From the NCBI GenBank assembly GCA_035697485.1, contig DASSCU010000029.1, positions 62,001-126,000 on the forward strand: DNA of 64,000 nucleotides, written 5' to 3'. Below, in pieces: positions 17,967-40,275 of this stretch. The DNA is from Actinomycetota bacterium (GTDB lineage: Bacteria > Actinomycetota > UBA4738 > HRBIN12). A program made the position numbers and the translations under genes. Position 1 is the first letter of the stretch. Each line of letters begins with the position of its first letter. The notes below the pieces were generated by a model that was not told the origin of the DNA, made no database searches, and worked only from the letters and a program-made list of their open reading frames with translations.

Positions 17967-18787
17967 TACGCGAGCGCCTCCTCGAGGGCCCGCCGCACCA
18001 GCACCTTGGAGACCTCCTTGCGGTACTCGGCACTGGCGAACGCGTCGGACGGGGGCGCGGTGCCTTCGTCGGCACGCTGCGACGCGCTCGCCGGATCGGC
18101 TCCCCCGGCGAGCGCCTCCTCGACACCGGCGGCTCGGATCGGCGTCTCGCCCATGTTCGTGAGGGCAACGCTCGCCGAGCCGTTCCGCTGGACCGCGGCC
18201 ACCCCCACCATCGCCCAGTCGATCGCCCGTCGATGGAACTTCAGGTAGCTCCAGCCGCCGGTCGTCTTCGGCACGCGGATCTCGGTGAGCACCTCGTTCG
18301 GGGCGAGGTCGGCGTGGAAGAGCCCCTTGAAGAAGTCGCCGACCGCGACGGTGCGCGACGCTCCGCCGGCGCCGCGGACCATGAACGACGCGCCGAGCGC
18401 CAGCATCACCGTGCCCATGTCGCCCGCCGGATCGGCGTGCGCGATCGACCCGCCGATCGTGCCCACGTGGCGCACTTGCGGGTCGCCGATCTGCTCGGCC
18501 GTGTCGGCCACGATCGGCGCCGCCTGCTGCAACAGCTCGCTGTTCGCCACGTCGTGGTGACGCGTCAGCGCTCCGATCGCGATCTGGTCGCCGTCCTCGC
18601 GGATGTACGACAGGTCGCCGATACGCGTGATGTCGACGAGGAGTGACGGCTGCGCGAGCCGCGTCTTCATCAGAGGAAGCAGCGAGTGTCCGCCGGCCAG
18701 GATCTTCGCGTCGTCGGCGCCGCCGAGCAGCTCGATGGCGTGGTCGACCGACTCGGCCCTCGCGTACTCGAAGGCCGCCGGGATCAT
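17966..18787 (-). CDS. FAD-binding medium subunit of form II CO-dehydrogenase-family enzyme
   Basis: A 273-aa CoxM/CutM-type subunit with the two FAD-binding signatures AGGHSLLPLMK and TIGGSIAHADPAGD, and the C-terminal CODH-FAD domain ending in YRKEVSKVLVRRALEEAL. It takes electrons from the 2Fe-2S subunit and passes them to an acceptor. The ATG overlaps the stop of the large-subunit gene (ATGA), so the order is S-L-M, unlike the M-S-L order of the form I locus. Because the large subunit is form II, the natural substrate may not be CO. Confidence 0.88.
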   Translation of the reverse strand: MIPAAFEYARAESVDHAIELLGGADDAKILAGGHSLLPLMKTRLAQPSLLVDITRIGDLSYIREDGDQIAIGALTRHHDVANSELLQQAAPIVADTAEQIGDPQVRHVGTIGGSIAHADPAGDMGTVMLALGASFMVRGAGGASRTVAVGDFFKGLFHADLAPNEVLTEIRVPKTTGGWSYLKFHRRAIDWAMVGVAAVQRNGSASVALTNMGETPIRAAGVEEALAGGADPASASQRADEGTAPPSDAFASAEYRKEVSKVLVRRALEEALA

Positions 18788-22711: not shown

Positions 22712-23650
22712 CTAGCCCTTGACGCCGGTCAGCGTGACGCCCTCGATGAACACCCGCTGAGCCAGGAAGAACAACACGATCACGGGGAGCATGAACAGCA
22801 CCGAGGCGGCCAGCATCAGGTTGTACTCGACCTGGTGGAGCCCTCGGAACTCGTTCAGGCCGATCGCGAGCGTCCACAGCCCGGGGTCATCGCTCAGGAA
22901 CAGCAGGGGTGCGAAGAAGTCGTTCCATGAGTAGAGGAACTGAAACAGCGCGACGGCCGCGATCGCCGGCTTCGCGAGCGGCACGACCACTCGCGTCATG
23001 ATCTGCCACTCGCTCCCGCCGTCCACCCGCGCCGCGTCGGAGAGCTCCTCGGGGATCGTCATGAAGAACTGCCGCATCAGGAAGATCGAGAACGCGTCGC
23101 CGAAGAACAGCGGCACGATCAGCGGCTTGAACGACGGAATCCAGCCGTAACGCGCGAACACGACGTACAGGGGCACGATCGTGACCTGATACGGCAGCAT
23201 GATCGTCGCCAGGATCACGACGAACGCTGCGTTGCGGCCGCGCCACCGCATGCGCGCCAGGGCGTACGCGACCGGGATGCTCGAGACCAGCACGCCGACG
23301 GTCGACAGCGTCGCGATCGTCATCGTGTTGAACGCGTAGCGGATCACCGGCAGCCGTTGGAACACCTCCGCGTAGTTGCTCCACTGGAACGGCCGCGGCC
23401 ACAGCTCGGTGGTCAGCGCCTGGTCGGTCGTCATCAACGACGTGAGGATCACGAACAGGAACGGGAGGGTGAACATCGCGGCGACCGCGATCAACATCGA
23501 GTGGTTCGCGACCGACATCAGGAACCGCCGTCTGCGGATCTCGGGCGGCACCGGCCGCGGCACCAACGGAGCAGCGGGGGCCGGTGCCGGCCCTCGTGCG
23601 ACGGAGACGGTCGGCGTGGCTATCGGAGCCCCCCTCCGTAATGCACCCAT
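22712..23650 (-). CDS. Sugar ABC transporter permease, MalG-like
   Basis: A 312-aa inner-membrane permease. After a proline-rich cytoplasmic N-terminus there are six hydrophobic helices and the EAA loop ELSDAARVDGGSEWQIMTRV followed by VVPLAKPAI, which contacts the ATPase. The end FIEGVTLTGVKG is typical of MalG-type permeases. The likely ATG at 23650 overlaps the upstream permease gene by 31 bp with only a weak GAGG in front. A later start just after the TAG of that gene would again need ACG. It pairs with the 23620-24597 permease and the ATPase at 35670. Confidence 0.87.
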   Translation of the reverse strand: MGALRRGAPIATPTVSVARGPAPAPAAPLVPRPVPPEIRRRRFLMSVANHSMLIAVAAMFTLPFLFVILTSLMTTDQALTTELWPRPFQWSNYAEVFQRLPVIRYAFNTMTIATLSTVGVLVSSIPVAYALARMRWRGRNAAFVVILATIMLPYQVTIVPLYVVFARYGWIPSFKPLIVPLFFGDAFSIFLMRQFFMTIPEELSDAARVDGGSEWQIMTRVVVPLAKPAIAAVALFQFLYSWNDFFAPLLFLSDDPGLWTLAIGLNEFRGLHQVEYNLMLAASVLFMLPVIVLFFLAQRVFIEGVTLTGVKG

Positions 23651-24597
23651 CGCCTCGAGTTCCGCAGGATCAAGAGGGTGCAGATCATCGTCACCAAGAG
23701 CAACACCCACGCGAGCGCCGAGGCATACCCCATCTTGAAGTTCTGGAACCCCATCTGGTAAAGGCGCGACGTGAAGAAGAGCAGCGAGTTCTGCGGGTGG
23801 CCGATCTGGGCGGCATCACCGGTGAGCCAGAAGCTGATCACGTACGGCTGCGTGAAGTATTGGAAACCGTAGATCACGCCGACCACGAGCGAGAAGAAGA
23901 TCACCGGCGATATCAAGGGCAGAGTCACCGAGCGAAACTTCTGCCAACCGCTCGCGCCTTCGATGTCGGCCGCCTCGTAGAGCTGTCGGGGCACGTCGAG
24001 CATGCCCGCGAGGAAGATGATCATCGCGTCGCCGACTCCCCACAGGATCAACAGCACAAGAGTGGGCTTGGACCACTGTGCGTCGAAGAGCCACAGCGGC
24101 GGATCCTTGATGCCGACCGCTCCGAGGATCTGGTTCACGGGGCCCGTCTCCGGGTTGAACAGGAAGAGGAACGCCAGCGCGGCGGCGACGGCCGGCGCGA
24201 GGGTCGGCACGAAGAACAGCGTGCGATAGGCCTTGACCCCCCGCTTTGGGCGCACGAGCAACGAGGCGGTGACGATCGCCGCCAGTATGCGAACGGGCAC
24301 GCCGATCACGATGATCCATGCCGTGTTCTTGATCGCCGTCCAGAAGAGGGGGTCCTTCGTGAACATGAAGCGGTAGTTCTCGAGCCCGATCCAGTGGGGG
24401 GTGGAGAGCAGGTCGTAGCTGGTGAAGGAGAAATACAGGCTGGAGATCATCGGGTAGAGCGTGAACGCGAGGAACCCCACGATCCACGGCGACATGAACA
24501 ACAGCACCAGCAGGTACCGCTTCAGCGTCTGGCGCCGGCGAGCGGGGGACGTTCGCCGCGTCCCCCGCTCGATCGGTGCCGTCGTCGCCTGCGCCGT
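23620..24597 (-). CDS. Sugar ABC transporter permease, MalF-like, apparent ACG start
   Basis: A MalF-type permease with six helices and the EAA loop QLYEAADIEGASGWQKFRSV followed by TLPLISPVI. The first helix begins LLVLLFMSPWIVGFLAFTLYP. The usual basic cytoplasmic tail that precedes it (APIERGTRRTSPARRRQTLKR) is open in frame but has no ATG, GTG or TTG. An ACG at 24597-24595 stands 7 nt after AAGGAG and 11 nt after the binding-protein stop, ideal spacing for a start. The first orthodox start, GTG 24507, would remove the tail and leave no ribosome-binding site. Function is certain, start is not (325 aa from ACG). Confidence 0.85.
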   Translation of the reverse strand, partial: TAQATTAPIERGTRRTSPARRRQTLKRYLLVLLFMSPWIVGFLAFTLYPMISSLYFSFTSYDLLSTPHWIGLENYRFMFTKDPLFWTAIKNTAWIIVIGVPVRILAAIVTASLLVRPKRGVKAYRTLFFVPTLAPAVAAALAFLFLFNPETGPVNQILGAVGIKDPPLWLFDAQWSKPTLVLLILWGVGDAMIIFLAGMLDVPRQLYEAADIEGASGWQKFRSVTLPLISPVIFFSLVVGVIYGFQYFTQPYVISFWLTGDAAQIGHPQNSLLFFTSRLYQMGFQNFKMGYASALAWVLLLVTMICTLLILRNSRRWVHYGGGLR

Positions 24598-24608: not shown

Positions 24609-25970
24609 TTAGAGTTGCGCCTGGTCGAGGGCGTCCTGCGTCTCCTGAGTGGCCCTCTCGAGTCCGCCTTGCAGGTCGCTCGCGTCACCCGTTTGCCAGT
24701 CGGCCGCGAAGTTGACCAAGTACTGCTCCAACTCCTCGCCGATCACCGTCGTCGGCCTGTACGCCGAGTCCGGGTGGTTGAAGGCTTCCATGAACGTGCC
24801 GAACTGCTCGGGCAGGTTCAGATCGGGTGAGTTGATCGCATCGATCGTCGTGGGCACGTTGTTCACGTAGTTCGCCATGTAGACGAGCGTCTCAGTGTTC
24901 GTCGCCAGGTACTTCACGAGTAGCCAGGCCTCCGCGGGGTGTTCGGCCCCCTTCGGGATACCGATGATCGTGCCGCCGACGACGCCCGACCCGTACTGAT
25001 CGGTCTTATCGGGTGCGGTCGGCAAGGGGGCGGTGTCGTAGTTCAGGTCGGGCGCGAAGTCCGCCAGGAAGGCATTCCTCCACTCACCGTCGATCTGCAT
25101 CGCGACCCGGCCCCGCTGGAAGTCCTGTGGCTTGCCCCACTCGTTCCCTGCGCCGGCCACGAACTTCCGAAGCTTGTCGGCACCCACCTGGAAGTCGCCG
25201 TCACCATAGACCTCGGCGATGAAGTCGTGCTGCCACTGGAACATCTCGGCCCATGCGGCATCGGTCGCGTACGCGGGATTCCCTTCCTCGTCGAGGTACT
25301 GCGCGCCGAACATGTGACCGAGGTTCAAGAGGTTACTGCTGCAGCAGTAGTAGTCGGTCACCGGCACGAACCCGGCGACCTTGATCGACCCGTCGGCGTT
25401 GAACTCGGTGAGCGCCTTCGCGTCCTCGGTCAACTCGTCCGTGGTCTTCGGCGGATCGGTCAGACCGGCCTTCTGGAACAGGTCCAGGTTGTAGTAGAGC
25501 GCGGTCGTGTCCGTCAGGAACGGCAGCGAGCACTGCGTTCCTTCGAAGCTCGTGTACGTAAGCGCGGTCTCGGGGAAGATGCTGCGATCGAACCCGGCCT
25601 CCCCGTCGATGTAGGGGTTCAGGTCCACCCATGCGCCCGAGTCACAGAAGCGTCCGACGTTGTCGACCCCGAAGGACAGGAACGCGTCGGGCGGGTTGCC
25701 CGCGTTGATCGCCGCGATCTGCTTCTCCTCGGTCACGCCGCACTTCGCGTCGACCGTGATCCACGGGTACTCGGCCTCGAAGCCGTCCTTGAACGAGTTC
25801 TGCCACTCGTCGCACTCGCGCTTCGAGGTCCATTCCCCCGTGAGCGTCACGGTCACCGGCTCGTTCGACGCGGCGGTGTCCACGGTGGGAGCGGGCTCGT
25901 CCCCGCCACCAGCCGTACACGCCGCGGCCACGAACGCGAGCACGGCCGTCGCCACCACCAAAGGCCTCAT
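24609..25970 (-). CDS. Sugar ABC transporter substrate-binding lipoprotein
   Basis: A 453-aa family 1 carbohydrate-binding lipoprotein. The signal MRPLVVATAVLAFVAAAC has a lipobox with acylated Cys18, followed by a disordered linker and the binding protein fold (VTVTLTGEW; EAEYPWITVDAK; NPPDAFLSFG; TTALYYNLDLFQKAGL, a typical hinge region). It captures the substrate outside the membrane. Six or more cysteines, including a CC pair, are unusual for this class. ATG 25970 is preferred over the adjacent ATG 25973 because AGGGAGG is 6 rather than 3 nt away. It follows the ROK gene by 86 bases. Confidence 0.87.
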   Translation of the reverse strand: MRPLVVATAVLAFVAAACTAGGGDEPAPTVDTAASNEPVTVTLTGEWTSKRECDEWQNSFKDGFEAEYPWITVDAKCGVTEEKQIAAINAGNPPDAFLSFGVDNVGRFCDSGAWVDLNPYIDGEAGFDRSIFPETALTYTSFEGTQCSLPFLTDTTALYYNLDLFQKAGLTDPPKTTDELTEDAKALTEFNADGSIKVAGFVPVTDYYCCSSNLLNLGHMFGAQYLDEEGNPAYATDAAWAEMFQWQHDFIAEVYGDGDFQVGADKLRKFVAGAGNEWGKPQDFQRGRVAMQIDGEWRNAFLADFAPDLNYDTAPLPTAPDKTDQYGSGVVGGTIIGIPKGAEHPAEAWLLVKYLATNTETLVYMANYVNNVPTTIDAINSPDLNLPEQFGTFMEAFNHPDSAYRPTTVIGEELEQYLVNFAADWQTGDASDLQGGLERATQETQDALDQAQL

Positions 25971-26056
25971 CATGCGCCTCCCTCCCCCGGTCGTTCCCGG
26001 GATCTCTTCCGAGCTGCTGATGATCGGTTGTACGTTCGTGAGCGATCTTCCGTGCA

Positions 26057-27253
26057 TCAGGCCGGCACCTTCCCTCTGGCGAACAGCTGGTCCTGCGCCG
26101 CCTGCAGCGCCATGAACACCGAGCCGTACAGCGTGGCCTCCTCGCGGAGCACCGATGCTTCGACCCGTGGTCGGAACGGCGAGATCGAACGCAGCTCCCG
26201 TTCCACCGGTTCGAGCAGGAGGTCTCCGTTGCCGCCGATGCCGCCGCCGAGGATCACGAGCTCCGGATCGACGACCGAGGCAACCGCCGCGATCGCGAGC
26301 GCGATGCGCTGGGCCTCCATGCGCACGACCCGCCTGGCTTTCGCGTCACCCGCGCGAGCCGCGTTGAACACGCGCTTGGCGGTCAGCGGCGGCGACATGC
26401 CGAGCTTCCGCGCGGTCGCGACGACCCCGGCGGCGCTCGCGGCGGCGTCGAGCGCACCCCGGCGGCGGCTCGTCGGGTCCTTCAGATCGGTGCCCACCAG
26501 CGGCATGTACCCCACCTCACCGGCAGCCCCGGTGCTGCCGCGGAACAGCTCGCCGTCGAGCACCAGCCCCATGCCGACGCCCGTGCCCAGGTGCAGGTAG
26601 ACGAAGTTGCCGACACCCTTGCCGAGCCCGTGCCACTGCTCACCGAGCGCCGCCAGGTTCACGTCGTTCTCGAAGGCGGTCTTGGTGCCGAGCTCGGCCT
26701 GCACCATCTCGACCAGGCCTTCTCGCCCCCACCCCGGCAGGCTGTATGCGAGCGCCACCTGACCACGCTCGGGCTCGAACACGCCGGGACTCCCGACCGT
26801 GGCGAACGTCACCTGTCGCCACCTGATGCCTGCGTCGGCCGCGAGCCCGTGGGCGATCGCGCCGATCTGCGTGATCAACGTCCGCGCGCTCTTCACTCGC
26901 GCCCGCTCGTCCCGGCGAGCGACGAACTCCCCGGTGACATCGGCGATCGCGGCCCGGACCCAGTCCCGTCCGACATCGATGCCGACGACCCAGCCGGCCC
27001 GGGGGTTCAACTCGTACAAGATGGCCGTGGGTCCCTTCCCGCCCTTCGACCGCCCCGCCTCGTGGACGAGGCCCGCCCGCTCGAGCCCGGTGAGCGCCTG
27101 CGAGACCGTCGGCTTGGACAAGGCGGTCTCGCGTGCGATCTGGGCTCGGGAGATCGGCCCGATGCGCAGCACGCAATCCAGCACGGTGCGTTCGTTGATC
27201 GCACGAAGCAGGCTGGGCGTGCCGGCGGCCGGAGCCTTCCGGTCGAGGTGCGT
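26057..27253 (-). CDS. ROK-family sugar-responsive repressor, apparent ACG start
   Basis: A 398-aa protein. The N-terminal winged HTH (LLRAINERTVLDCVLRIG; ISRAQIARETALSKPTVSQ) is followed by a ROK sugar-kinase-like domain (VVGIDVGRDWVRAAIAD; HLGTGVGMGLVLDG; ELVILGGGIGG). The Cys-rich zinc motif usual in ROK proteins (CxCGxxGCxE) is absent; the equivalent loop runs GYMPLVGTDLKDPTSRRRG. The only well-placed start is ACG 27253-27251, 4 nt after GGGGAGG. Longer forms would start upstream of the predicted promoter (TTGACT, 18 nt, TAGCAT) and read through the AGGAAACTTTCCT operator. It probably represses its own operon and the SIS/GH4 operons. Confidence 0.85.
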   Translation of the reverse strand, partial: THLDRKAPAAGTPSLLRAINERTVLDCVLRIGPISRAQIARETALSKPTVSQALTGLERAGLVHEAGRSKGGKGPTAILYELNPRAGWVVGIDVGRDWVRAAIADVTGEFVARRDERARVKSARTLITQIGAIAHGLAADAGIRWRQVTFATVGSPGVFEPERGQVALAYSLPGWGREGLVEMVQAELGTKTAFENDVNLAALGEQWHGLGKGVGNFVYLHLGTGVGMGLVLDGELFRGSTGAAGEVGYMPLVGTDLKDPTSRRRGALDAAASAAGVVATARKLGMSPPLTAKRVFNAARAGDAKARRVVRMEAQRIALAIAAVASVVDPELVILGGGIGGNGDLLLEPVERELRSISPFRPRVEASVLREEATLYGSVFMALQAAQDQLFARGKVPA

Positions 27254-27273: not shown

Positions 27274-27286
27274 AGGAAACTTTCCT
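27274..27286. promoter_or_regulatory. ROK operator, 13-bp palindrome, copy 1
   Basis: AGGAAACTTTCCT, a perfect palindrome about a central C, flanked by AA on both sides (AA-site-AA). The same 13 bases occur at 32943-32955. It lies 8-20 nt downstream of the predicted start of the ROK transcript and over the -35 region of the divergent aldolase promoter. Confidence 0.75.
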
Positions 27287-27300
27287 AACTATTCGCGCGG

Positions 27301-27330
27301 ATGCTACGCTCGCTTCCGGACCCCAGTCAA
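27301..27330. promoter_or_regulatory. Divergent promoter pair for ROK/importer and aldolase/kinase operons
   Basis: Minus strand: TTGACT (27330-27325), 18-nt spacer, TAGCAT (27306-27301). Plus strand: TACGCT (27305-27310), with TTCCTA (27282-27287, inside the operator) 17 nt upstream as a weak -35. The two -10 boxes share the central TA of atgcTAcgct. Confidence 0.6.
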
Positions 27331-27377
27331 GACAACCGGCGGCCGCCCCGACCGGCGCACGGAGGTCACTGGCAACG

Positions 27378-27992
27378 ATGACGCTCCTCGATGCAGGACC
27401 GCTGGTCGGGATCATCCGCTATCGGGCAACGGCCGACCTTGTCCCGGTCCTCGAGGCACTGGCCGACGCAGGGATACCGCTCCTGGAGGTCACGCTCGAC
27501 ACGCCCGGGGCCCTGGACGCGATCGCATCGGTCGCGGCAACCGGCACCACGATCGGCGCGGGCACCGTGCTCGACGCCGATCAAGTGCGGGCGAGCGCCG
27601 ACGCCGGAGCCGGATTCGTCGTGTCGCCCGGACTCGTCGACGAGGTGGTCGAGCAGGCGACCACCCTCGGCGTCGAGCCGATCCCCGGTGTGCTCACGCC
27701 GACCGAGCTGCTGCGAGCTCGTGGCCTGGGCGCCTCGGCCGTGAAGGTCTTCCCCGCAGGTCCGTGTGGCGGGCCGGAGCTGATCCGCGCCCTGCGCTCG
27801 CCGTTCCCTGGGGTCGGGATGCTCGCCACGGGCGGTATCGCCGTCGACGACGTCGGCGCCTATCTCGCCGCCGGCGCGACGGCGGTCGGTCTCGGGGCGG
27901 CGCTCACCGGACACCGTCCGCCCGAGACACCCGCCGAGCTCGACGAGCTGCGAGCCCGCGCCGCTGCCGCGCTCGAGGCGGCGACGAGATGA
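27378..27992 (+). CDS. eda: 2-keto-3-deoxy-6-phosphogluconate/galactonate aldolase
   Basis: A 204-aa class I aldolase of the KDPG family. LVGIIRY is the N-terminal strand, the catalytic Glu is in LLEVTLDTPGA, and the Schiff-base Lys is in SAVKVFPAG; the phosphate-binding GTVL and LATGGI loops are present. It splits KDPG (or the galacto form) into pyruvate and glyceraldehyde 3-phosphate. The ATG at 27378 lies 12 nt after GGAGG, a long spacing. The stop overlaps the next start (ATGA). Together with the kinase it closes an Entner-Doudoroff-type route for the sugar acid made in this locus. Confidence 0.87.
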   Translation: MTLLDAGPLVGIIRYRATADLVPVLEALADAGIPLLEVTLDTPGALDAIASVAATGTTIGAGTVLDADQVRASADAGAGFVVSPGLVDEVVEQATTLGVEPIPGVLTPTELLRARGLGASAVKVFPAGPCGGPELIRALRSPFPGVGMLATGGIAVDDVGAYLAAGATAVGLGAALTGHRPPETPAELDELRARAAAALEAATR

Positions 27993-28888
27993 GTGGCACG
28001 ACCTACGACGTGATCGGGCTCGGCGAGACGATGCTCTCCCTCGTCGCCTACGACGGGCCGCTCGAGACCGCGACGGCGTTCTCCGGGACTCACGGCGGCG
28101 CCGAGAGCAACGCACTCGTCGCCCTCTCCCGTCTGGGGTTCCGCACTGCGTGGATCAGCAGCCTGGGGGACGACCCGGCCGGAACGCGCGTGCGCGAGGC
28201 CCTCGAGCGAGAAGGGGTCGATCTCCGATGGGTCCGAACCGACCCAGCGCGACCCACGGGTCTGATGCTGCGCGATACTCGGGGAGGGGTGCGCTACTGG
28301 CGTACCGGATCGGCCGCGAGCGCGCTCGACCCAGCCGCGCTGGACGGGGTGCCGGTCGCCGACGCCCGCGCCGTGCTCGTGACCGGGATCACGGCGATGC
28401 TCGGGGCGGGGCCGCAGGCCGCGGCGATCGCGCTCCTCGACCGCGCCGGCGGGCTCCGCGCCGTGGACCCGAACCTCCGTCCGGGCCTCTGGGGATCCGA
28501 TCGCGCACACGAGCTCGTGATGCCGCTGCTGGAACGCTGCGACGTGGTGCTCGGCGGCGAGCGAGAGCTCGCGTTGCTCGTGGGCGGCTCGGGCGCGGGG
28601 TCGGCCAGGCGCTGCGCGGAGCTGGGGCCCAGCGAGGTCGTCGTGAAGCGCGGCGCCGACGGCGCCGCGGTCCTGGAGCCCGACGGCGCCTGGCGCGAGC
28701 TCCGTCCGCCGACCTCCGACGACGTCGACCCCGTCGGCGCCGGCGACGCGTTCAACGCCGGCTACCTGGCTGCCCGGCTCGACGGGGCATCGTGCCTCGA
28801 GTCGCTGCGAGCGGGAGCGGCGGCAGGAGCGGCGGCCGCGGGCGTCCTCGGCGATGTCGGTGCGCGCAAGCAGGACGTCGATGTGTGA
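27989..28888 (+). CDS. kdgK: PfkB-family kinase, probably 2-keto-3-deoxygluconate kinase
   Basis: A 299-aa ribokinase-like enzyme: N-terminal VIGLGETMLSLVAYDGPLE, the substrate-recognition glycines FSGTHGGAESNALVALSRLG, and the C-terminal ATP/anion-hole motif DVDPVGAGDAFNAGYLAARL with the catalytic Asp. The GETM start and GGAESN motif resemble KdgK rather than fructokinase. Coupled by ATGA to the aldolase gene, it would phosphorylate 2-keto-3-deoxygluconate to KDPG. The short pair is transcribed away from the ROK gene from an overlapping promoter. Confidence 0.83.
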   Translation: MSGTTYDVIGLGETMLSLVAYDGPLETATAFSGTHGGAESNALVALSRLGFRTAWISSLGDDPAGTRVREALEREGVDLRWVRTDPARPTGLMLRDTRGGVRYWRTGSAASALDPAALDGVPVADARAVLVTGITAMLGAGPQAAAIALLDRAGGLRAVDPNLRPGLWGSDRAHELVMPLLERCDVVLGGERELALLVGGSGAGSARRCAELGPSEVVVKRGADGAAVLEPDGAWRELRPPTSDDVDPVGAGDAFNAGYLAARLDGASCLESLRAGAAAGAAAAGVLGDVGARKQDVDV

Positions 28889-28943
28889 CCCCGCCCGCGT
28901 CGCACGAGATCCGGCGTCGACGCCGCGATCAGAACGCCGTCGG

Positions 28944-30245
28944 TCATCGGCCCCCCCAGCCCGCAGGGAGGTGCTCGGCGTGCGCTTCGAGGTAGGACGC
29001 CACGAGCGCATCCGCCAGGTTCACGCTCCGAACCAGGGGGTGCAGGGCCAGGGCCGTCACCGCCAGCTCGCGATCTCCCGTGACCGCGGCCTCGGCGGTC
29101 ATCGCAGCGTGCACCGCGACCTGTCGGACCAGCCCGCTCACCTCGACGGGGAGCGCTCCTTGCGGGACAGCCGAGACGGTTCGGCCGTCGATCGTCGCAG
29201 GGGTCTCGACGATCGTGCCGTCGGGGAGGTCGTCGACCTGACCGGCGTTCGGGAGGTTCAGGATCGCTCGCCGGTGCGTGCCGGTCAGCATCGCGGCCAT
29301 CACGGAGACGGCGAAATCGCCGTGCGCCTCGCTCGCACGTGCCATCGACGGGCGCGGATCCTCGGCGTCGGCCTCCCGTCGGTAGCTCTCGAGCACCGAG
29401 GGGAGGATCGCCATCACCTCCTGCGCGCGCGTGCGACCCTGCGCTCGCTGCTCGGCCAGCACCTCGTCGTGGAAGAAGAAGTACTGCATGTACTCGCTCG
29501 GCACGTGGTGCAGCAGGCGGAACAGCTGCACGATGCGCCGCTCGGCGACGGACGTCAGGCGTTCCAACGGCAGGGAGTCGAGCAGCGTCCACAGCTCGGT
29601 CGTGACGTCCTCGCTCGCCACCCGCACCCCCCGCGTGAACGTCATGTGGTTCGTGCCGCACGTGTCGAGCGCGATCGCATCAGCGTCGATGTCCAACAGC
29701 CTCGCGAGGAACCGGGCCTCGCCGGCGGTTTGATCGCAGAGGCCGAGGAACGGCAGCGCCGGGCCGAACCGACGCATCGCTTCGCTCACGACCTGCACCG
29801 GGTTCGTGTAGTCGAGGAGGACGGCCTCCGAGGCAGCGAGCCTCCTCATCTCCTCGGCGACCTCGAGCACGATCGGCACCGATCTGAGGGCCATGGCGAA
29901 CCCGCCGGGTCCAGCGGTCTCCTGTCCGATCACGCCGTGGTCGATCGCGATGCGCTCGTCGAGGTGCCGGGCCACCAGACCACCCGGCCGGAAGGCCGCG
30001 AGGACGACGTCGGCGCCCTCCAGCGCGGGGGACCGATCGCCATGAGCCTCTACCCGAACGCCTCGAGCTCCCCTCGAACGCAGGATGCTGCCCGTCAGAC
30101 GCCGTTGCAGGTCGAGCGCGCCGGTGTCGACATCCTGCAGCACCAGGGTCGCGTCCCCGAACGCTTCGGCATGATGGGCGAAGGCGAACGCGATCCCCGG
30201 CATGTAGGCCGATCCCCCGCCGATCACGACGACGCGTGCGCCCAT
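28944..30245 (-). CDS. Glycoside hydrolase family 4 enzyme (first copy, divergent)
   Basis: A 433-aa NAD-dependent GH4 enzyme. It has the nucleotide-binding start VVVIGGGSAYMPG, the family motif GVIGQETAGPGGFAMALRS, the LDYTNPVQVVSE segment, and the metal-ligand regions GLCDQTAGE (Cys) and DTCGTNHMTF (His). GH4 enzymes break glycosidic bonds through oxidation at C3 and elimination, needing NAD and Mn. The CDQTAGE and CGTNH motifs differ from the CNVxIG/GLNH of the second copy, so the substrate probably differs. A TAGCGT box ends 7 nt before the ATG with no Shine-Dalgarno, indicating a leaderless transcript. Confidence 0.83.
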   Translation of the reverse strand: MGARVVVIGGGSAYMPGIAFAFAHHAEAFGDATLVLQDVDTGALDLQRRLTGSILRSRGARGVRVEAHGDRSPALEGADVVLAAFRPGGLVARHLDERIAIDHGVIGQETAGPGGFAMALRSVPIVLEVAEEMRRLAASEAVLLDYTNPVQVVSEAMRRFGPALPFLGLCDQTAGEARFLARLLDIDADAIALDTCGTNHMTFTRGVRVASEDVTTELWTLLDSLPLERLTSVAERRIVQLFRLLHHVPSEYMQYFFFHDEVLAEQRAQGRTRAQEVMAILPSVLESYRREADAEDPRPSMARASEAHGDFAVSVMAAMLTGTHRRAILNLPNAGQVDDLPDGTIVETPATIDGRTVSAVPQGALPVEVSGLVRQVAVHAAMTAEAAVTGDRELAVTALALHPLVRSVNLADALVASYLEAHAEHLPAGWGGR

Positions 30246-30252
30246 CGCAGCC

Positions 30253-30258
30253 ACGCTA
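30253..30258 (-). promoter_or_regulatory. Leaderless -10 box of the first GH4 gene
   Basis: TAGCGT on the minus strand, 7 nt upstream of the ATG at 30245; no clear -35. Confidence 0.42.
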
Positions 30259-30364
30259 ACAGCCGGTTCGTGAGCGCGGGCCGCCCAGACGCTGACCGGC
30301 ACGAGGCGTGGGTAACGGAGACCTGACCGATCCCGAGCGAGGACTGAGAGAGGAGAGCGCGACG

Positions 30365-31600
30365 ATGGCTGAACTCGCAGTGAATGGGGGGACCCCCGTG
30401 CGCTCGACGCCGTACCCTGCGTGGCCCGCGCCCGACGATGAGTACGTCGAGGCCGTGTCCGAGGTCGTGCGAGGCGGCGAGTGGGGAGGCTTCCCTGAGC
30501 CCGGCGTGAACGCGACGGCGTTCGAGGAGGCCTTCGCCGCGTACCAGGGCGCTCACCACGGGGTCCTGATGATGAACGGCACCGTGACGATGGAGGTCGC
30601 GTGCAAGGCGCTCGACGTCGGATGGGGCGACGAGGTGATCGTGCCGGCCCTGACGTTCGCCGCCACCGCGTACGCACCGATGGCCGCGGGCGCCCTGCCC
30701 GTGATCGTGGACGTCACCCCCGAGACGTGGTGCATCGACCCTGATCTCGTGGAGGCGGCCATCACGCCGCGCACGCGGGCGATCATCCCGGTGCACCTCG
30801 GTCACCAGATGGCCGACATGGACCGGCTGACCGAGATCGCCGACCGGCACGGATTGGCCGTGATCGAGGACTGTGCACATGCCCACGGGCAACAGTGGCG
30901 TGGCCGCGGCGCCGGATGCATCGGAGACTTCGGCTCGTTCAGCCACCAATCGTCGAAGATCCTCACCTCCGGCGAGGGCGGCACGCTCCTGACGAACGAC
31001 GACACCCTGGCACGGCGCGCACACTCGATCATCGACTGCGGGCGTGCGAAGGACACCGAGGAGAAGGAGTTCACGTTCGGGTCGAACTACCGGCTCTCCG
31101 AGCTGAACGCCGCACTGCTCGTGGTCGCGATGCGGCGGTTCCCAGGACAGCAGGAAGAGCGCGCAACCAACGGCCTTCGCTTCGAGCGGTTGGCGGCCGA
31201 CATCCCAGGCGTGCGGGTCATGCCCCGCGACCGGCGCATCACGCGATGGAGCTTCTACAACTACATCCTGGCGATCGACCCGCGTGCGTTCGGGGGCGCC
31301 ACGAACGAGACCGTCTGCGCCGCCCTCGAAGCTGAGGGCATCCCGGCGGAGGTGCAGTACCCGCCGATGAGCCGTTACGAGCTGTTCCAGCCGTCGCTGT
31401 CACGTCTCCCCGTGGCCGTGGAGCACGCCGACCGCCTCGACCCACGGGGGATGTCGTTCCCCGTCGCAGAGGCCGCCGGGCTCCGCGAATCCGTCTACCT
31501 CATGGAGGCGGTGTTCCGAGACGGGGAGCGCGGGGTGCAGGACGCGGTCGACGCCCTCGCGAAGGTGCAGCGCCACGCGTGGGAGCTGCCGAAGGACTGA
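30365..31600 (+). CDS. DegT/DnrJ/EryC1/StrS-family sugar aminotransferase
   Basis: A 411-aa PLP enzyme. The opening AELAVNGGTPVRSTPYPAWP is like StsC/inosose-type members; MMNGTVTMEVACKAL and PALTFAATAYAP are cofactor-side loops, VIEDCAHAHG the pyridine-nitrogen Asp region, and SHQSSKILTSGEGG contains the Schiff-base Lys. The family transfers an amino group to or from keto-sugars or keto-cyclitols. Finding it between two GH4 genes, whose chemistry goes through 3-keto sugars, is unusual for a catabolic cluster. The ATG at 30365 is preceded by GAGAGGAGAGC; an in-frame GTG at 30308 adds 19 unconserved residues. Confidence 0.85.
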   Translation: MAELAVNGGTPVRSTPYPAWPAPDDEYVEAVSEVVRGGEWGGFPEPGVNATAFEEAFAAYQGAHHGVLMMNGTVTMEVACKALDVGWGDEVIVPALTFAATAYAPMAAGALPVIVDVTPETWCIDPDLVEAAITPRTRAIIPVHLGHQMADMDRLTEIADRHGLAVIEDCAHAHGQQWRGRGAGCIGDFGSFSHQSSKILTSGEGGTLLTNDDTLARRAHSIIDCGRAKDTEEKEFTFGSNYRLSELNAALLVVAMRRFPGQQEERATNGLRFERLAADIPGVRVMPRDRRITRWSFYNYILAIDPRAFGGATNETVCAALEAEGIPAEVQYPPMSRYELFQPSLSRLPVAVEHADRLDPRGMSFPVAEAAGLRESVYLMEAVFRDGERGVQDAVDALAKVQRHAWELPKD

Positions 31601-31609
31601 TCGAGAGCG

Positions 31610-32905
31610 TCAGGCCGGGAAGAACCTGGGCAGGTGGCGCTCGTTCGCCGCAAGCAGCGCATCGAGCAGGGGCCGGGCTCGTTCGTAGTCCCCGACCAGG
31701 GGATTCGCCAGCAGTCCCCTGAGAGCTGTGGCCCGGCTGCCCGAGGTGGCAGCATCGATCGTGAGGCGCTCGTAGGCCTTCGCGTGCTGGACCAGCCCGG
31801 CCATCTCGGGGGCGAGCGGGTCGGTGGCGATGGCGTGTGCGCCGGAAGCGTCGATGCGAGCCGCGATCTCCACGACGTCGTCGTCGGGCAGGTTCGGGAT
31901 CGCACCGGCGTTCGGCAGGTTCACGACCTGCACGTCGCCGGTGCCCGCATGCAGCGACGCCACCAATGCCGCAGCAGCGTCGCTGTAGAAGGCGCCTCCA
32001 CGCTCCTCGAGCAGTTCCGGCTTCGTGTCGAGGGTGGGATCCTTGTAGAGCTCGAGCAGCCCGGCCTCGATCTCCATGACCTCCTTGGCCCGGTTGCGCC
32101 CACCGCGCAGCTCGCGCATCACCCGGTCGGTCAGGTAGTAGTACCGCAGGTAGGACGAGGGGATCGCGCCCAACGTCCGGGCGATCTCCAACGGCATCTC
32201 GTCGTCCAGCTCGTCCAGGTACCCGCGAACCGCAGGGCTTGGGTCGACGGCCGGATCCAGCAGCTCCGGGAGGCGATCGACGCCGTCGACGAGCACCTTG
32301 CGTTCCCACGTGAGGTGATTCAGCCCCACGTGGTCGAGCCCGACGTGACCGGGGTCCACGCTGAAGATCTCGGCGAAGTCGCGCTGGAACCCGATCGCAA
32401 CGTTGCACAACCCGATCGCCCTGTGCCCCTCGTCGAGCAGCGCCTGGGACACGAGTCCGGTCGGGTTCGTGAAATCGACGAACCACGCTTCCGGCGCGCC
32501 TCGTTCCGCCGTGAGCTGCGCGAGCTCGAGCACGACCGGCACCGTGCGCAACGCCTTCGCGAACCCCCCAGGGCCGGTCGTCTCTTGACCGATGCACCCG
32601 AACTCGAGCGGGATCGTCTCGTCGAGGTAGCGCGCCTGATTCCCTCCGACCCGGAGCTGCACGATCACGAAATCGGCGCCTTCGATCGCCTCGAGGCGGT
32701 CGGTGGTGAGACTCAGCCGCCCAGTCCAGCCGACCTTGCGCATCATGCGGTCGGCGAGCGCGCCGACGACGTCGAGGCGCTCCCGATCGATGTCGAACAG
32801 CACCAGCTCGTCGACCGGGAGACGGTCGTCGCGTCGCACGAACCCTTCCACGAGCTCAGGGGTGTAGGTGCTCCCGCCGCCGACGACCGCCACCTTCACA
32901 CCCAT
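31610..32905 (-). CDS. Glycoside hydrolase family 4 enzyme (second copy, LicH/CelF-like)
   Basis: A 431-aa GH4 enzyme close to the 6-phospho-beta-glucosidase branch: NAD motif VAVVGGGSTYTPELVEG, QLRVGGNQARYLDETIPLEF followed by GCIGQETTGPGG, and metal/substrate motifs GLCNVAIG and DHVGLNHLTW. It hydrolyses glycosides by a redox-elimination route through a 3-keto intermediate with NAD and Mn. No PTS is present, so phosphorylated substrates would have to come from the local BadF-type kinase. A TACGAT box ends 9 nt before the ATG and shares its TA with the divergent SIS promoter; the ROK palindrome lies just beyond. Confidence 0.87.
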   Translation of the reverse strand: MGVKVAVVGGGSTYTPELVEGFVRRDDRLPVDELVLFDIDRERLDVVGALADRMMRKVGWTGRLSLTTDRLEAIEGADFVIVQLRVGGNQARYLDETIPLEFGCIGQETTGPGGFAKALRTVPVVLELAQLTAERGAPEAWFVDFTNPTGLVSQALLDEGHRAIGLCNVAIGFQRDFAEIFSVDPGHVGLDHVGLNHLTWERKVLVDGVDRLPELLDPAVDPSPAVRGYLDELDDEMPLEIARTLGAIPSSYLRYYYLTDRVMRELRGGRNRAKEVMEIEAGLLELYKDPTLDTKPELLEERGGAFYSDAAAALVASLHAGTGDVQVVNLPNAGAIPNLPDDDVVEIAARIDASGAHAIATDPLAPEMAGLVQHAKAYERLTIDAATSGSRATALRGLLANPLVGDYERARPLLDALLAANERHLPRFFPA

Positions 32906-32924
32906 GGTGCCGGCATCGTACACT
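32895..32924. promoter_or_regulatory. Divergent, overlapping promoters of the GH4 and SIS operons
   Basis: Plus strand: TTCACA (32895-32900), 18 nt, TACACT (32919-32924), then 7 nt to the SIS ATG at 32932. Minus strand: TACGAT (32920-32915), then 9 nt to the GH4 ATG at 32905. The two -10 boxes share the TA of atcgTAcact, as at 27301-27310. Confidence 0.6.
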
Positions 32925-32931
32925 CGCGGCG

Positions 32932-34002
32932 ATGAAATCGTTAGGAAACTTTCCTGACCCATTCATCGCCGAGATCGCCAGCCAACCGGACGCCGTGCGG
33001 CGAGCGGCGGCCGGCCTCGACGACCAGCGCGCCGTCCTCGACGATATCGCCCATGCATCCGCCGGGCGGACCCTCGTCTTCACCGGGATGGGGAGCTCCT
33101 ACGACGCGTGCTACCCGGCCGTGGCCGAGCTTGCCCGCGCGGGCATCGCGGCGGTCATGCTCGACGCCGCGGAGCTCCTGCACTTTCGGACGGGGATGCT
33201 CCGCCCATCGACGATGCTCGTCGCGGTAAGCCAGTCGGGCGAAAGCATCGAAGTGGTGCGGGTGGCCGCCGGTCTCGCCGGACAGGCCGAGCACCCGGTG
33301 GTGGTCGCGATCACGAACGGCACCGCGAACACCCTCACCTCGCTGGCCGATCTCTCGGTCGACACCGGAGCTGGTGAGGAGACAGGCCCCTCGACGATGA
33401 CCTTCGCAGGCTCCCTCGTCGTCCTCGGCGCGCTCGCCCGGATGCTCGGGGGAACCCCGCCCGGCGAGGCGCTCGAGCGCCTCGCGACCGACGCCGAGCT
33501 GGCCGCCGTGGCGATCGAATGCCTGCTGGGCGACGCCGATCTGCCGGAGCGGCTGGTGTCCTGGCTGGGCGAGCGCGAGACGATGGTGATCCTCGGCCGA
33601 GGACCGGGCCGGGCCGCAGCGGAGATGGGCGCACTCACGATCAAGGAAGCCGTGGGCATGCCGGTGGAGTCCCTCCAGACCGGCCAGTTCCGTCACGGAC
33701 CACTGGAGCTCGCGGGACCGGGCCTGGCCGCCGTGGTGATCGCGACCGAGCCGGAGACCCTCGAGCTCGACCTGACCCTGGCCGAAGAACTCCTCGCGAC
33801 AGGGGCGGGTGTCCTGCTGGTCACGGCCGACGATCAGCCCGGATCGGGAGCGATGCGAGTCGCGACGGGCCCGCTCGAGCGCGCCCTCGCTCCCGCGGTG
33901 TCGATCCTCCCCTGCCAGCTGCTCGCCTGGCGGCTCGCCGGACTCCGCGGCCGTGACCCCGGGGCCTACTACCGCGCGGCCAAGGTGACCACCCATGAAT
34001 GA
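32932..34002 (+). CDS. SIS-domain aminosugar-phosphate enzyme (GlmS/AgaS isomerase-deaminase type)
   Basis: A 356-aa protein with two SIS domains: first TLVFTGMGSSYDACYPAVAE and LVAVSQSGESIEVVRVA, second VILGRGPGRAAAEMGALTIK with EAVGMPVESLQTGQFRHGPL. The layout matches the isomerase half of glucosamine-6-phosphate synthase and AgaS-type deaminase/isomerases, without the glutaminase domain. It would isomerise or deaminate an aminosugar phosphate. The ATG lies 7 nt from a TACACT -10 box and has no Shine-Dalgarno, so translation is probably leaderless; codons 4-8 are the ROK operator itself. First gene of an overlapping four-gene operon. Confidence 0.82.
   Translation: MKSLGNFPDPFIAEIASQPDAVRRAAAGLDDQRAVLDDIAHASAGRTLVFTGMGSSYDACYPAVAELARAGIAAVMLDAAELLHFRTGMLRPSTMLVAVSQSGESIEVVRVAAGLAGQAEHPVVVAITNGTANTLTSLADLSVDTGAGEETGPSTMTFAGSLVVLGALARMLGGTPPGEALERLATDAELAAVAIECLLGDADLPERLVSWLGERETMVILGRGPGRAAAEMGALTIKEAVGMPVESLQTGQFRHGPLELAGPGLAAVVIATEPETLELDLTLAEELLATGAGVLLVTADDQPGSGAMRVATGPLERALAPAVSILPCQLLAWRLAGLRGRDPGAYYRAAKVTTHE
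32943..32955. promoter_or_regulatory. ROK operator, 13-bp palindrome, copy 2, inside the SIS coding start
   Basis: AGGAAACTTTCCT, identical to 27274-27286. It begins 11 nt into the SIS gene and lies about 12-24 nt downstream of its predicted transcription start, and over the -35 position of the divergent GH4 promoter. Confidence 0.75.
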
Positions 34003-34645
34003 GCGCCGGGGGGGTGTCGTCGGCTCGACAGAGGGCTCCGACTTCCGGGTCGCGCTGACCTTCGACGCGGAGCATCCCGATCGGCAGTGGTGTCCTCCCG
34101 ACGCCGCCGAACGCATCTTCGACACCCTGCGTGACCTGGAGGTCCGCGCAACCGTGTTCGTGCAGGGGCGGTGGGCGCAAGCGCACCCCTCGATCGCCGC
34201 ACGCATCGCCCACGAGGGGCACCTCGTCGGGCACCACTCGCACTACCACGCGCGGATGCCCTTGCTGACCGACCCGGGCCTCGCAGCCGACATGGCCGAT
34301 GCGGCCGAGGCGATCGTCGCCGCGACGGGCACCGACCCGCGGCCATGGTTCCGGTGTCCATTCGGTGCGGGGCACGACGACCCCCGCGTGCTGGCGATGC
34401 TGGCTTCCCTCGGCTACCGCAACGTGCACTGGCACGTCGAGCTCGAAGACTGGGAACCGTGGCGCACCGGTACCGCGATCGCCGACGACACGCTCGAGCG
34501 GGTGACACGACACGGCGACGGGGCCGTCGTGCTTCTGCACAGCTGGCCGGGCGGCACGGCTGACGCATTGCGACCGATCGTCGACGGGCTCCGCGACGCC
34601 GGCGCTTCGTTCGTGACGGTCGACGAGCTCGAGGAGCTCCCGTGA
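33995..34645 (+). CDS. NodB-domain polysaccharide deacetylase, altered metal motif
   Basis: A 216-aa NodB-homology protein. Motif 1 is ALTFDAEHPDR rather than TFDDG, so one of the two usual aspartates is missing while the first remains. Motif 2 is GHHSHYHARM (H-x3-H type), motif 3 FRCPFGAGHDD and motif 5 AVVLLHSWPGG. The family removes N-acetyl or related acyl groups from sugars in a metal-dependent way. There is no signal peptide, so it would act on imported mono- or oligosaccharides. The ATG overlaps the SIS stop by 8 bp; its stop overlaps the kinase start (GTGA). Confidence 0.8.
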   Translation: MNERRGGVVGSTEGSDFRVALTFDAEHPDRQWCPPDAAERIFDTLRDLEVRATVFVQGRWAQAHPSIAARIAHEGHLVGHHSHYHARMPLLTDPGLAADMADAAEAIVAATGTDPRPWFRCPFGAGHDDPRVLAMLASLGYRNVHWHVELEDWEPWRTGTAIADDTLERVTRHGDGAVVLLHSWPGGTADALRPIVDGLRDAGASFVTVDELEELP

Positions 34646-35670
34646 GCCGCCACCCGGCACTCCTCGCGGTCGACGGAGGCGGATCGAAGATCGACGCCGC
34701 GCTGTTGCAGCGGGACGGGACCGTGCTGGGAGCCTTCAGGATCCGTACCCAGGAGTTCGAGGAGAACGGTGGCCCGCAGCACATGGGCCAGGTGCTCGAT
34801 GCCGTGCATGGCGCGTGCAGAGACGCGCAGATCGATCTCGCCCTCCCCGTCGCCGATCTCGGCGTGTACTGCCTCGCCGGCGCCGACCTTCCGGCAGACG
34901 ACCGGAAGATCCTGCGGTGGCTGCGGGCGCAGCGCCTCACCCAGGAGAGCGTCTTACGCAACGACACGTTCGCCGTCTTGCGGGCCGGCACCGAGCGGCA
35001 CTGGGGTGTCGGCGTGGTGTGCGGCTTCGGCACGAACTGCTCCGCCGTGGCCCCCGACGGCAGGATCACCCGGTTCCCCGCGGTCGGTCCGATCTCGGGT
35101 GACTGGGGAGGTGGTTCCGACGTGGGCGAGGCGGCACTCTGGTACGCGATCCGGTCCGAGGACGGTCGTGGTGCGAAGACCGCCCTCGCCGAACTCGTAC
35201 CGGCGCACTTCGGGCTCCGACGACCTCGTCAGGTGCTCGAGGCCGTGTATTACGGACGCGTGGAGGAGGACCGCCTCGTCGAGCTCGCGCCGCTCGTGTT
35301 CAGCGCCGCATCGGCGGGTGACCCCGTGGCCCGGAGCGTCGTGGATCGGCAGGCCGATGAGATCGTCGCGATGGTCACCACCGCGATCAAACGACTGCGC
35401 ATGCAGAAGCTGGATGTCGACGTCGTGCTCGGCGGGGGCATCTTCCGCACCGACGACGACGCCTTCTTCCGTCGCATCCGCGACGGCGTGCACGAGGTCG
35501 CGCCGGCCGCGAGTTTCACCGTCTTGACCGACCCCCCCGTGATCGGGGCCGCGTGGCTGGGTCTCGACAGGCTCGGCGCGCCGGCGGCCGCCTACGTCCG
35601 CGCGCGCCGTGCCTTGACCCATGCTCGGCTGGCCGCACACACTCATGCCCGACGGAAGGAGCACCGCTGA
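34642..35670 (+). CDS. BadF/BadG-type ATPase, probably N-acetylglucosamine-like sugar kinase
   Basis: A 342-aa actin-like ATPase. Phosphate 1 motif LLAVDGGGSKIDAALL, the domain-linking LRNDTFAVLRAGT, the phosphate 2 loop GVVCGFGTNCSAV, SGDWGGGSDVGEAAL and adenosine motif DVVLGGGIFR match the BadF/BadG/BcrA family, whose sugar branch is N-acetylglucosamine kinase (NAGK). It would phosphorylate the imported aminosugar before the SIS enzyme and GH4 enzymes act. It starts at GTG overlapping the deacetylase stop and ends in TGATG with the ABC ATPase gene. Confidence 0.8.
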   Translation: MSRHPALLAVDGGGSKIDAALLQRDGTVLGAFRIRTQEFEENGGPQHMGQVLDAVHGACRDAQIDLALPVADLGVYCLAGADLPADDRKILRWLRAQRLTQESVLRNDTFAVLRAGTERHWGVGVVCGFGTNCSAVAPDGRITRFPAVGPISGDWGGGSDVGEAALWYAIRSEDGRGAKTALAELVPAHFGLRRPRQVLEAVYYGRVEEDRLVELAPLVFSAASAGDPVARSVVDRQADEIVAMVTTAIKRLRMQKLDVDVVLGGGIFRTDDDAFFRRIRDGVHEVAPAASFTVLTDPPVIGAAWLGLDRLGAPAAAYVRARRALTHARLAAHTHARRKEHR

Positions 35671-36869
35671 TGGCCGACATCGTGCTGGACCGCGTCTCGA
35701 AGGTCTTCGGCACCGACGTCGTCGCCGTGAATGACGTATCACTCGAGATCGGTGACGGGGAGTTCATGGTCCTCGTCGGACCGTCGGGGTGCGGCAAGTC
35801 CACGATCCTGCGCATCCTCGCCGGACTCGAGGAGGTCACAGCCGGCGAGATCTCCATCGGGGGAACGCAGGTGACCGACCTGCCGCCGAAGGACCGCGAC
35901 ATCGCGATGGTGTTCCAGAACTACGCGCTCTACCCGCACATGACGGTCGAGCAGAACCTCGGCTTCGGCCTGCGGCTGCGAAAGACCCCGAAGGGTGAAC
36001 AACGCACGCGGGTCGCCGACGCCGCGAGGATCCTGGGCCTGGTCCCGCTCATGGGCCGTAAGCCCGCGGAACTCTCGGGCGGCCAGCGGCAGCGCGTCGC
36101 GATGGGTCGGGCGATGGTCCGAGAGCCTCGTGCCTTCCTCATGGACGAGCCGTTGTCCAACCTCGACGCGAAGCTGCGCGTCCAGATGCGAGCGGAGCTC
36201 TCCCGCCTGCACGAGCGTCTCGGCACGACCACGGTGTATGTGACCCATGATCAGGTCGAGGCGATGACGCTTGGCCAGCGGGTCTCGGTGCTGAAGGACG
36301 GTGTCCTCCAGCAGGTCGACACGCCGCAGAACCTCTACAACCACCCGGCGAACCTCTTCGTCGCCGCCTTCATCGGCTCACCGCCCATGAACCTGGTCGA
36401 AGCTGACGTGAGCGAGAAGACGATCTCCTTCGGCGGCTTTTCGCTGCCGCGCCAGGACTCCGACGGGCTCCAGGACCGCGTTGGAGGCCGGGTGATCCTG
36501 GGCATCCGTCCCTCGGACCTCGAGGACTGCGACGTCTGGCACACCGAGGACCTCCCGACCCTCGAGGTGCGCGCCGAGGTGACGGAGGAACTGGGCTCGG
36601 AGGTGAACATCATCTTCCCCGTCGAGGCCCCGCCCGTGCTGACCGAAGACGTGATCGCCGCGGCCAGTGACGAGTCGGACCACGACAACATCCCGCTGAT
36701 CGCCGACGAGCAGCAGGTGTGCCGGTTCTGCGCGCGCGTGGACGCCCGCACGCACTGCAGGCCGGGCGACACCGTGCGTCTGTCAGTTGACCCGGCTCGG
36801 TTCCACTTCTTCGACCGGGAGAGCGGTCTCGCGGTCGGCGCGCGGAGCTCGGCGCCCGTCGGGGCGTGA
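35670..36869 (+). CDS. Sugar ABC transporter ATPase, MsmK/UgpC-like, with cysteine-rich C-terminus
   Basis: A 399-aa ATPase: Walker A GPSGCGKSTILR, Q-loop VFQNYALYPHMTV, signature LSGGQRQRVAMGRAM, Walker B AFLMDEPLSNLDAKLR and switch His VTHDQ. The C-terminal TOBE region is longer than usual and holds the cluster CRFCARVDARTHC plus an acidic insert (ASDESDHDN), which I have not seen in MsmK/UgpC. It probably drives the permeases at 22712-24597, in a different operon but under the same ROK palindrome. The start ATG overlaps the kinase TGA (TGATG). Confidence 0.87.
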   Translation: MADIVLDRVSKVFGTDVVAVNDVSLEIGDGEFMVLVGPSGCGKSTILRILAGLEEVTAGEISIGGTQVTDLPPKDRDIAMVFQNYALYPHMTVEQNLGFGLRLRKTPKGEQRTRVADAARILGLVPLMGRKPAELSGGQRQRVAMGRAMVREPRAFLMDEPLSNLDAKLRVQMRAELSRLHERLGTTTVYVTHDQVEAMTLGQRVSVLKDGVLQQVDTPQNLYNHPANLFVAAFIGSPPMNLVEADVSEKTISFGGFSLPRQDSDGLQDRVGGRVILGIRPSDLEDCDVWHTEDLPTLEVRAEVTEELGSEVNIIFPVEAPPVLTEDVIAAASDESDHDNIPLIADEQQVCRFCARVDARTHCRPGDTVRLSVDPARFHFFDRESGLAVGARSSAPVGA

Positions 36870-39748: not shown

Positions 39749-40243
39749 ATGGAAGTCACGATCACCGTCAACGGCACCGCCCACACCCTCGACATCGAGC
39801 CACGTGAGCTGCTCGTGCACGTGTTGCGCGAGGATCTCCGCCTCACCGGCACGCACATCGGGTGCGACTCCACGAGCTGCGGCGCGTGCACCGTGCTCTA
39901 CGACGGCGTGCCGGTGAAGTCGTGCACCTTGTTCGGCGTGCAGGCCGAGGGCGTCGAGATCACGACCGTCGAGGGCCTGCTGACCGCGGCGGGACTCGAT
40001 CCGATGCAGGCCGCGTTCAAGGAGCACCACGGCCTGCAATGCGGCTACTGCACGCCGGGCATGATGCTCGTCGGCAAGGCCCTGATCGAGCAGAACCCGG
40101 CGCCGAGCGACGACGACGTTCGCGACGCGATCGGCGGCAACATCTGCCGGTGCACGGGCTACATGAACATCGTGAAGGCGATCCAGGCGGCAGCCGCGGC
40201 CCAACAGCAGTCTGCGCCGACTCCGGCGCCCGCGAACGCCTGA
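39749..40243 (+). CDS. coxS: Form I CO dehydrogenase iron-sulfur small subunit CoxS
   Basis: A 164-aa subunit with two 2Fe-2S clusters: GCDSTSCGACTVLYDG plus VKSC at the N-terminal plant-type cluster, and QCGYCTPGM with ICRCTGYMN at the C-terminal cluster. It relays electrons from the Mo-Cu centre of CoxL to FAD in CoxM. GAGGGGGACC precedes the ATG, and it starts 20 bases after coxM. A proline/alanine tail (about 15 residues) extends past the usual end. Confidence 0.9.
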   Translation: MEVTITVNGTAHTLDIEPRELLVHVLREDLRLTGTHIGCDSTSCGACTVLYDGVPVKSCTLFGVQAEGVEITTVEGLLTAAGLDPMQAAFKEHHGLQCGYCTPGMMLVGKALIEQNPAPSDDDVRDAIGGNICRCTGYMNIVKAIQAAAAAQQQSAPTPAPANA

Positions 40244-40275
40244 CCACGAGCCACGAGATCGAAGGAGCCCGACAC

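Follow-up and report, generated by a model that had tools for sequence, protein, structure and literature searches.

The question raised by this sugar locus is what two identical 13-bp palindromes do at its two divergent promoter regions, given that one of them lies inside a gene. The locus was analyzed in a window of 64,000 nucleotides from the genome of an uncultured actinobacterium (assembly GCA_035697485.1, contig DASSCU010000029.1, positions 62,001 to 126,000 of the forward strand); all positions below refer to this window unless a relative is named. From sequence comparisons, we conclude that the two palindromes are very probably operators of a CsnR-type repressor of the ROK family, encoded beside the first copy, and that they control both divergent gene pairs. 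The two sites are:

27274-27286, no strand: predicted operator copy 1, CsnR-box AGGAAACTTTCCT (sequence, genome scan, same place in relatives)
32943-32955, no strand: predicted operator copy 2, CsnR-box, within codons 4-8 of the gene for a SIS-domain protein (sequence, genome scan, conservation)

The two copies of AGGAAACTTTCCT are identical and 5.7 kb apart, as the initial annotation had read them, and each consists of two perfectly complementary 6-bp arms around a single central C. That annotation had seen no third copy in the intergenic regions that it covered. Our scan of the whole genome (3,412,654 bases in 64 contigs, 95.6% complete, 69.4% G+C) identified no further copy with 0-1 mismatch in the 3.41 Mb, and a reversed-pattern control also gave none. 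At two mismatches there were 12 additional matches versus 8 for the control, which is about background. Since simple arithmetic at 69.4% G+C predicts approximately 0.016 perfect occurrences of AGGAAANTTTCCT per genome, two copies within 5.7 kb are not explained by chance. The genome-wide scan rules out both a chance repeat and a scattered global motif; copies dispersed at unrelated genes, the outcome that the initial annotation regarded as fatal to its proposal, are excluded in this genome.

Both 13-mers match exactly the published consensus AGGAAANTTTCCT. A review (PMC6097792) names this consensus the CsnR-box and gives csnA and csnR as the places where the ROK repressor CsnR binds it; the same review presents CsnR as a negative regulator of csnA and csnREFGHK, (GlcN)2 as the best competitor, and csnREFGHK as encoding a ROK protein, an ABC importer, a GH4 enzyme and a kinase. 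A second paper quotes a CsnR site containing TAGGAAACTTTCCTA (PMC4856308). The palindrome also overlaps the transcription start of csnN106, where mutation of the palindrome or deletion of csnR causes derepression (PMC3048496). The window shares the operator sequence and a ROK repressor with the CsnR regulon of Streptomyces lividans and S. coelicolor (csnREFGHK, csnA), and in both cases a box is located just downstream of the regulator's promoter (TTGAC-18-TA..), before the regulator's own unit. An ABC importer, a GH4 enzyme and a BadF-type kinase are likewise common to csnREFGHK and to this cluster, where they are split into divergent units. The genes with counterparts in the Streptomyces clusters are listed here (genes throughout were annotated by Pfam and NCBIfam scans, and the binding protein and permeases from open reading frames (ORFs) and their matches in the Streptomyces clusters):

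26057-27253, minus strand: ROK-family repressor, CsnR-like, with winged helix-turn-helix (HTH) and ROK domains; inferred ACG start at 27253-27251, after GGGGAGG (27264-27258)
24609-26057, minus strand: ABC sugar-binding protein, CsnE-like, 35-37% identical to the gene that follows csnR in the Streptomyces clusters
23620-24507, minus strand: ABC permease 1, CsnF-like, 45-47% identical to the Streptomyces cluster gene
22712-23710, minus strand: ABC permease 2, CsnG-like, 49-52% identical to the Streptomyces cluster gene
31610-32905, minus strand: GH4 glycosidase b (GH4b), CsnH-like, divergent from the SIS gene, 52-54% identical to the Streptomyces cluster GH4 (domain scan)
34642-35670, plus strand: BadF-type sugar kinase, CsnK-like, 42-45% identical to the Streptomyces cluster kinase (domain scan)

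By sequence and gene set, the window is a CsnR-type regulon. The ROK protein matches PF00480 (E-value 1.2e-43) and has winged HTH domains at residues 25-73. In a phylogenetic tree, it and CsnR share a clade (100/98) from which other ROK proteins are separate; inside this clade, the first branch to meet the window lineage is another Streptomyces ROK protein and not CsnR, with support of 88/87 that is not firm. Membership in NagC was rejected (97.3 bits versus the curated cut-off of 650 for NCBIfam NF047937), as was membership in Mlc (75 bits versus 530 for NF049930); these Escherichia coli repressors of aminosugar and glucose genes share with the window the ROK fold, the N-terminal winged HTH and the connection with aminosugar-related genes. 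RokB of S. coelicolor is another ROK regulator with a site (at novH) overlapping a start codon, but it differs from the window protein in operator sequence and in target genes.

The occurrence of the palindrome was examined in 101 genomes, its association with the ROK gene in 61, and its wider distribution in a sample of 397 genomes of the phylum. Among the 101, its occurrences were for the most part in members of the same family and in two genomes of a neighbouring one. It is typically present twice per genome, a few kb apart where both copies are on one contig; in relatives, one copy lies at the junction with the ROK gene and the other between GH4b and SIS. It is present in 14 of the 15 genomes with a close ROK ortholog versus 1 of the 46 without (Fisher p about 1e-11, not corrected for phylogeny); that single genome has a csnR-type cluster. 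In the sample of 397, TAGGAAANTTTCCTA was confined to the same family and to one genus that we take to be Streptomyces (genomes of 6-10 Mb), where it is found ahead of csnR-like ROK genes and of the genes for a GH46 and a GH5 enzyme; the order in these genomes is box, ROK, sugar-binding protein, two permeases, GH4 and kinase, and the encoded proteins are 35-54% identical to those of the window. The genome encodes three other ROK-domain proteins, and similar boxes could serve several such proteins, so that one of them, or a global factor, might bind the palindromes in place of the adjacent ROK protein. We regard this as improbable: there are only two genomic sites and one is beside this ROK gene, the palindrome co-occurs with this ortholog across genomes, the other ROK-domain matches align to the window protein only outside its HTH, and a box directly upstream of a ROK gene is typical of autoregulation, as in csnR. 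The box match, this co-occurrence and the recurrence of the same two junctions in relatives favour the adjacent ROK protein as the predicted repressor, as the initial annotation had suggested.

Further boxes were observed in other genomes. In G004 an extra box (L037:9473-9485) precedes a large protein with GH9 and polysaccharide deacetylase domains, likely an extracellular member of the regulon. In G010 a third box (L040:1744-1756) precedes a second ABC transporter, with permeases approximately 30% identical. In the Streptomyces-like genomes, two boxes (L089 and L087) have downstream genes that are not clearly identified, the one in L089 being near an ECF sigma factor and a RskA-type anti-sigma factor.

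The position of the boxes relative to promoters is consistent with repression. Promoter scans identified:

27301-27330, minus strand: promoter of the ROK, sugar-binding protein and permease unit, TTGACT (27330-27325), 18 nt, TAGCAT (27306-27301); relatives and Streptomyces csnR conserve its hexamers and geometry
32895-32924, plus strand: promoter of the SIS, deacetylase, kinase and ATPase unit, TTCACA, 18 nt, TACACT; conserved in relatives

Each is the sole match in its own region, with about zero expected. The boxes begin approximately 9 nt (copy 1) and 12 nt (copy 2) past the inferred transcription starts, and the distance from the -10 hexamer to the box is conserved (20 nt at the ROK promoter, with 17-21 in Streptomyces, and 24 nt at the SIS promoter). 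The opposite promoters, of an aldolase-kinase pair at copy 1 and of GH4b at copy 2, are weaker; at each box, the -35-like hexamer of the opposite promoter overlaps the TTTCCTAAC arm or lies directly against it, an arrangement that is also conserved. These scans agree with the earlier placement of each site downstream of one start and over the -35 region of the opposite promoter, and with the ROK gene lying beside copy 1 and the importer ATPase belonging to the rightward unit under copy 2 (SIS, deacetylase-family, BadF-type kinase and UgpC-type ATPase genes). The idea that one bound dimer could block four transcripts was corrected: a dimer would act on two, and both sites are needed for four.

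Without inducer, a repressor dimer would sit at copy 1 just downstream of the transcription start of the ROK-importer unit, and another at copy 2 just downstream of that of the SIS-deacetylase-kinase-ATPase unit. Each would also cover the -35 side of the weaker opposite promoter, the aldolase-kinase one at copy 1 and the GH4 one at copy 2, so that both divergent pairs and the ROK gene itself would be blocked. By analogy with CsnR, an imported aminosugar oligosaccharide, probably derived from chitosan, would release the repressor. At the weak opposite promoters the box edge forms part of a poor -35, a position that activators also use, and the regulator could be an activator, or have a dual role, at some promoters; this is unlikely, since CsnR is a demonstrated repressor and at both strong promoters the box is downstream of the start, where repression alone is plausible.

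Several observations weigh against assigning the palindromes to a CsnR-type repressor in this way. The window ROK protein shares just 36-38% identity with the CsnR-like proteins of Streptomyces and 47% with a different Streptomyces ROK protein that has neither box nor cluster, which weakens the case for one-to-one orthology with CsnR. The whole-genome scan found no chitosanase with a box in this genome, and a search of 27 genomes of this and related species gave no GH46 enzyme; a box before a chitosanase gene is typical in Streptomyces but is not required for the csnREFGHK cluster itself. The hexamers at both opposite promoters are poor. Finally, one genome with an ortholog (G008) has a damaged palindrome. 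Its ROK ortholog is diverged (51%; L105:10520-11674), with a shortened operator arm (TCAGGAAAGTTCCTTTCC) and the same promoter before it.

Why copy 2 is inside a gene can be addressed from the spacing of the SIS promoter and start codon. The SIS ATG is 7 nt past the -10 hexamer in the window, and an ATG or GTG is about 7 nt past it in the relatives compared, which predicts a leaderless SIS mRNA. With the box at about +12 to +24 of such an mRNA, it is necessarily coding, and it spans the third base of codon 4 through the end of codon 8, in agreement with the codons 4-8 of the initial annotation. The repressor must sit in the early transcribed region, which in this gene would already be coding. 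In the SIS ORF (32932-34002) these codons read TTA GGA AAC TTT CCT. Codons 3-5 and 7-9 are identical across 11 orthologs, and outside the genus g3 the orthologs read SLGNFPD, with one SLGKFPD. This conserved peptide could suggest that copy 2 is kept for the N-terminal LGNFPD and that its likeness to copy 1 is coincidental. Such an explanation is barely credible: rare codons of this genome (TTA, 0.7% of Leu; TTT, 2.6% of Phe; CCT, 8% of Pro) are retained without exception, and the same 13-mer at copy 1 is non-coding. Moreover, in g3 (L041, L042) the SIS gene is no longer beside GH4b; in its old place TCGTTAGGAAACTTTCCTGA and the -10 TACACT are retained, the ATG is lost, an in-frame stop is present, and the ATPase gene comes next with its own leader. 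The relocated gene in L041 (16691-17761) has the N-terminus MRSLDGFSDPF, without the LGNFPD peptide and without a box. Since the gene moved without the box and the box was left behind as non-coding sequence, the box is conserved as DNA, and the relocation rules out a constraint on the peptide.

The start codon of the ROK gene is the second unusual aspect. There is no in-frame ATG, GTG or TTG between the ROK promoter and the conserved N-terminus (GTPSLLRAINER) in the window, and the sole ATG of the frame lies upstream of the promoter. An ACG at 27251-27253 (minus strand) is shared at the expected start by the orthologs of nine genera, 8-10 codons before GTP, with a purine-rich Shine-Dalgarno-like stretch ahead in most and variable flanks; a tenth genus, at a contig end, is consistent with it. 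The start alignment is anchored on the ACG, and its 100% at that codon is thus by construction; for an in-frame ACG to fall by chance within these three codons in all nine genera, we roughly estimate a probability of about 1e-10, not corrected for relatedness. Far upstream starts are excluded by in-frame stops in L041, L043, L046, L047, L035, L036 and L038. L049 and L050 are exceptions in that they also have a TTG or GTG further up. Outgroup starts near the place of the ACG are TTG (L051, L052) or ATG (most Streptomyces csnR). Three other candidates were rejected: the ATG at 27415, which precedes both the conserved promoter and the operator and is separated by in-frame stops in relatives; an ATA that overlaps the operator and would be leaderless, a possibility closed by stop codons in L041, L047, L035 and L036; and a canonical codon inside GTPSLLRAINER, a segment conserved as protein even to Streptomyces.

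In E. coli reporters, an ACG start gives 0.1-1.5% of the expression from ATG (PMC6925171), and an ACG start-codon variant lowered the expression of a regulator (PMC10449621). The GTG of E. coli lacI, which lowers the amount of repressor and raises basal expression (PMC11445065), is similarly a weak start on a sugar repressor, but it is an ordinary alternative start, whereas ACG is far weaker in reporters. We found no described natural bacterial ACG start in the part of the literature covered. The conserved ACG suggests that the level of the ROK repressor is kept low. More broadly, we consider it reasonably probable that this start is conserved across the family and its neighbours (nine genera readable), in place of the outgroup TTG or ATG, and selected to keep an autoregulated sugar repressor very low, together with an operator that lies within the coding part of a leaderless target gene.

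The window differs from the Streptomyces csn system in having two boxes for two divergent gene pairs, one of them coding in a probably leaderless gene, and in having no boxed chitosanase and a probable ACG start of the ROK gene instead of ATG. It also contains additional genes:

32932-34002, plus strand: SIS-domain protein resembling the isomerase half of GlmS, likely an aminosugar-phosphate deaminase/isomerase
33995-34645, plus strand: polysaccharide deacetylase-family protein (domain scan)
35670-36869, plus strand: importer ATPase, UgpC/MsiK type
27378-27992, plus strand: KDPG/KHG aldolase, Eda-like, divergent from the ROK gene
27989-28888, plus strand: PfkB kinase, 2-keto-3-deoxygluconate (KDG) kinase-like
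28944-30239, minus strand: GH4 glycosidase a, the second GH4
30365-31600, plus strand: DegT-type aminotransferase (domain scan), whose nearest solved relatives are 2-deoxy-scyllo-inosose aminotransferases

The DegT aminotransferase is kept in most clusters and is odd for plain chitosan catabolism; its relatives raise the possibility of an aminocyclitol-like substrate or an unusual aminosugar. The KDPG aldolase and KDG-kinase-like pair (27378-28888) is found in the locus of this genome only among those compared, while L041 and L043 retain the PfkB gene without the aldolase; the pair suggests that the regulon gained an Entner-Doudoroff-type branch. The locus is flanked at 18784-21147 (minus strand) and 39862-42630 (plus strand) by ORFs resembling, by eye, the large, medium and small subunits of xanthine/CO dehydrogenase.

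The motif, the regulator type and the gene set have been described before, and what the window shows is mostly a regulatory system already known, here in a lineage new to it. What merits bench work is the box embedded in coding sequence and the ACG start. An uncultured actinobacterial lineage is hereby tied to a named, experimentally known regulatory system, with a predicted class of inducer. The gene relocation in g3 provides a natural case in which an in-gene operator was retained because of DNA binding rather than the peptide. Should the ACG start hold, gene prediction puts the start of this repressor in the wrong place, or misses it, throughout the family; it would also be a rare case in which selection appears to maintain, on a regulator, a start codon that is among the weakest, taking the story of the lacI GTG further.

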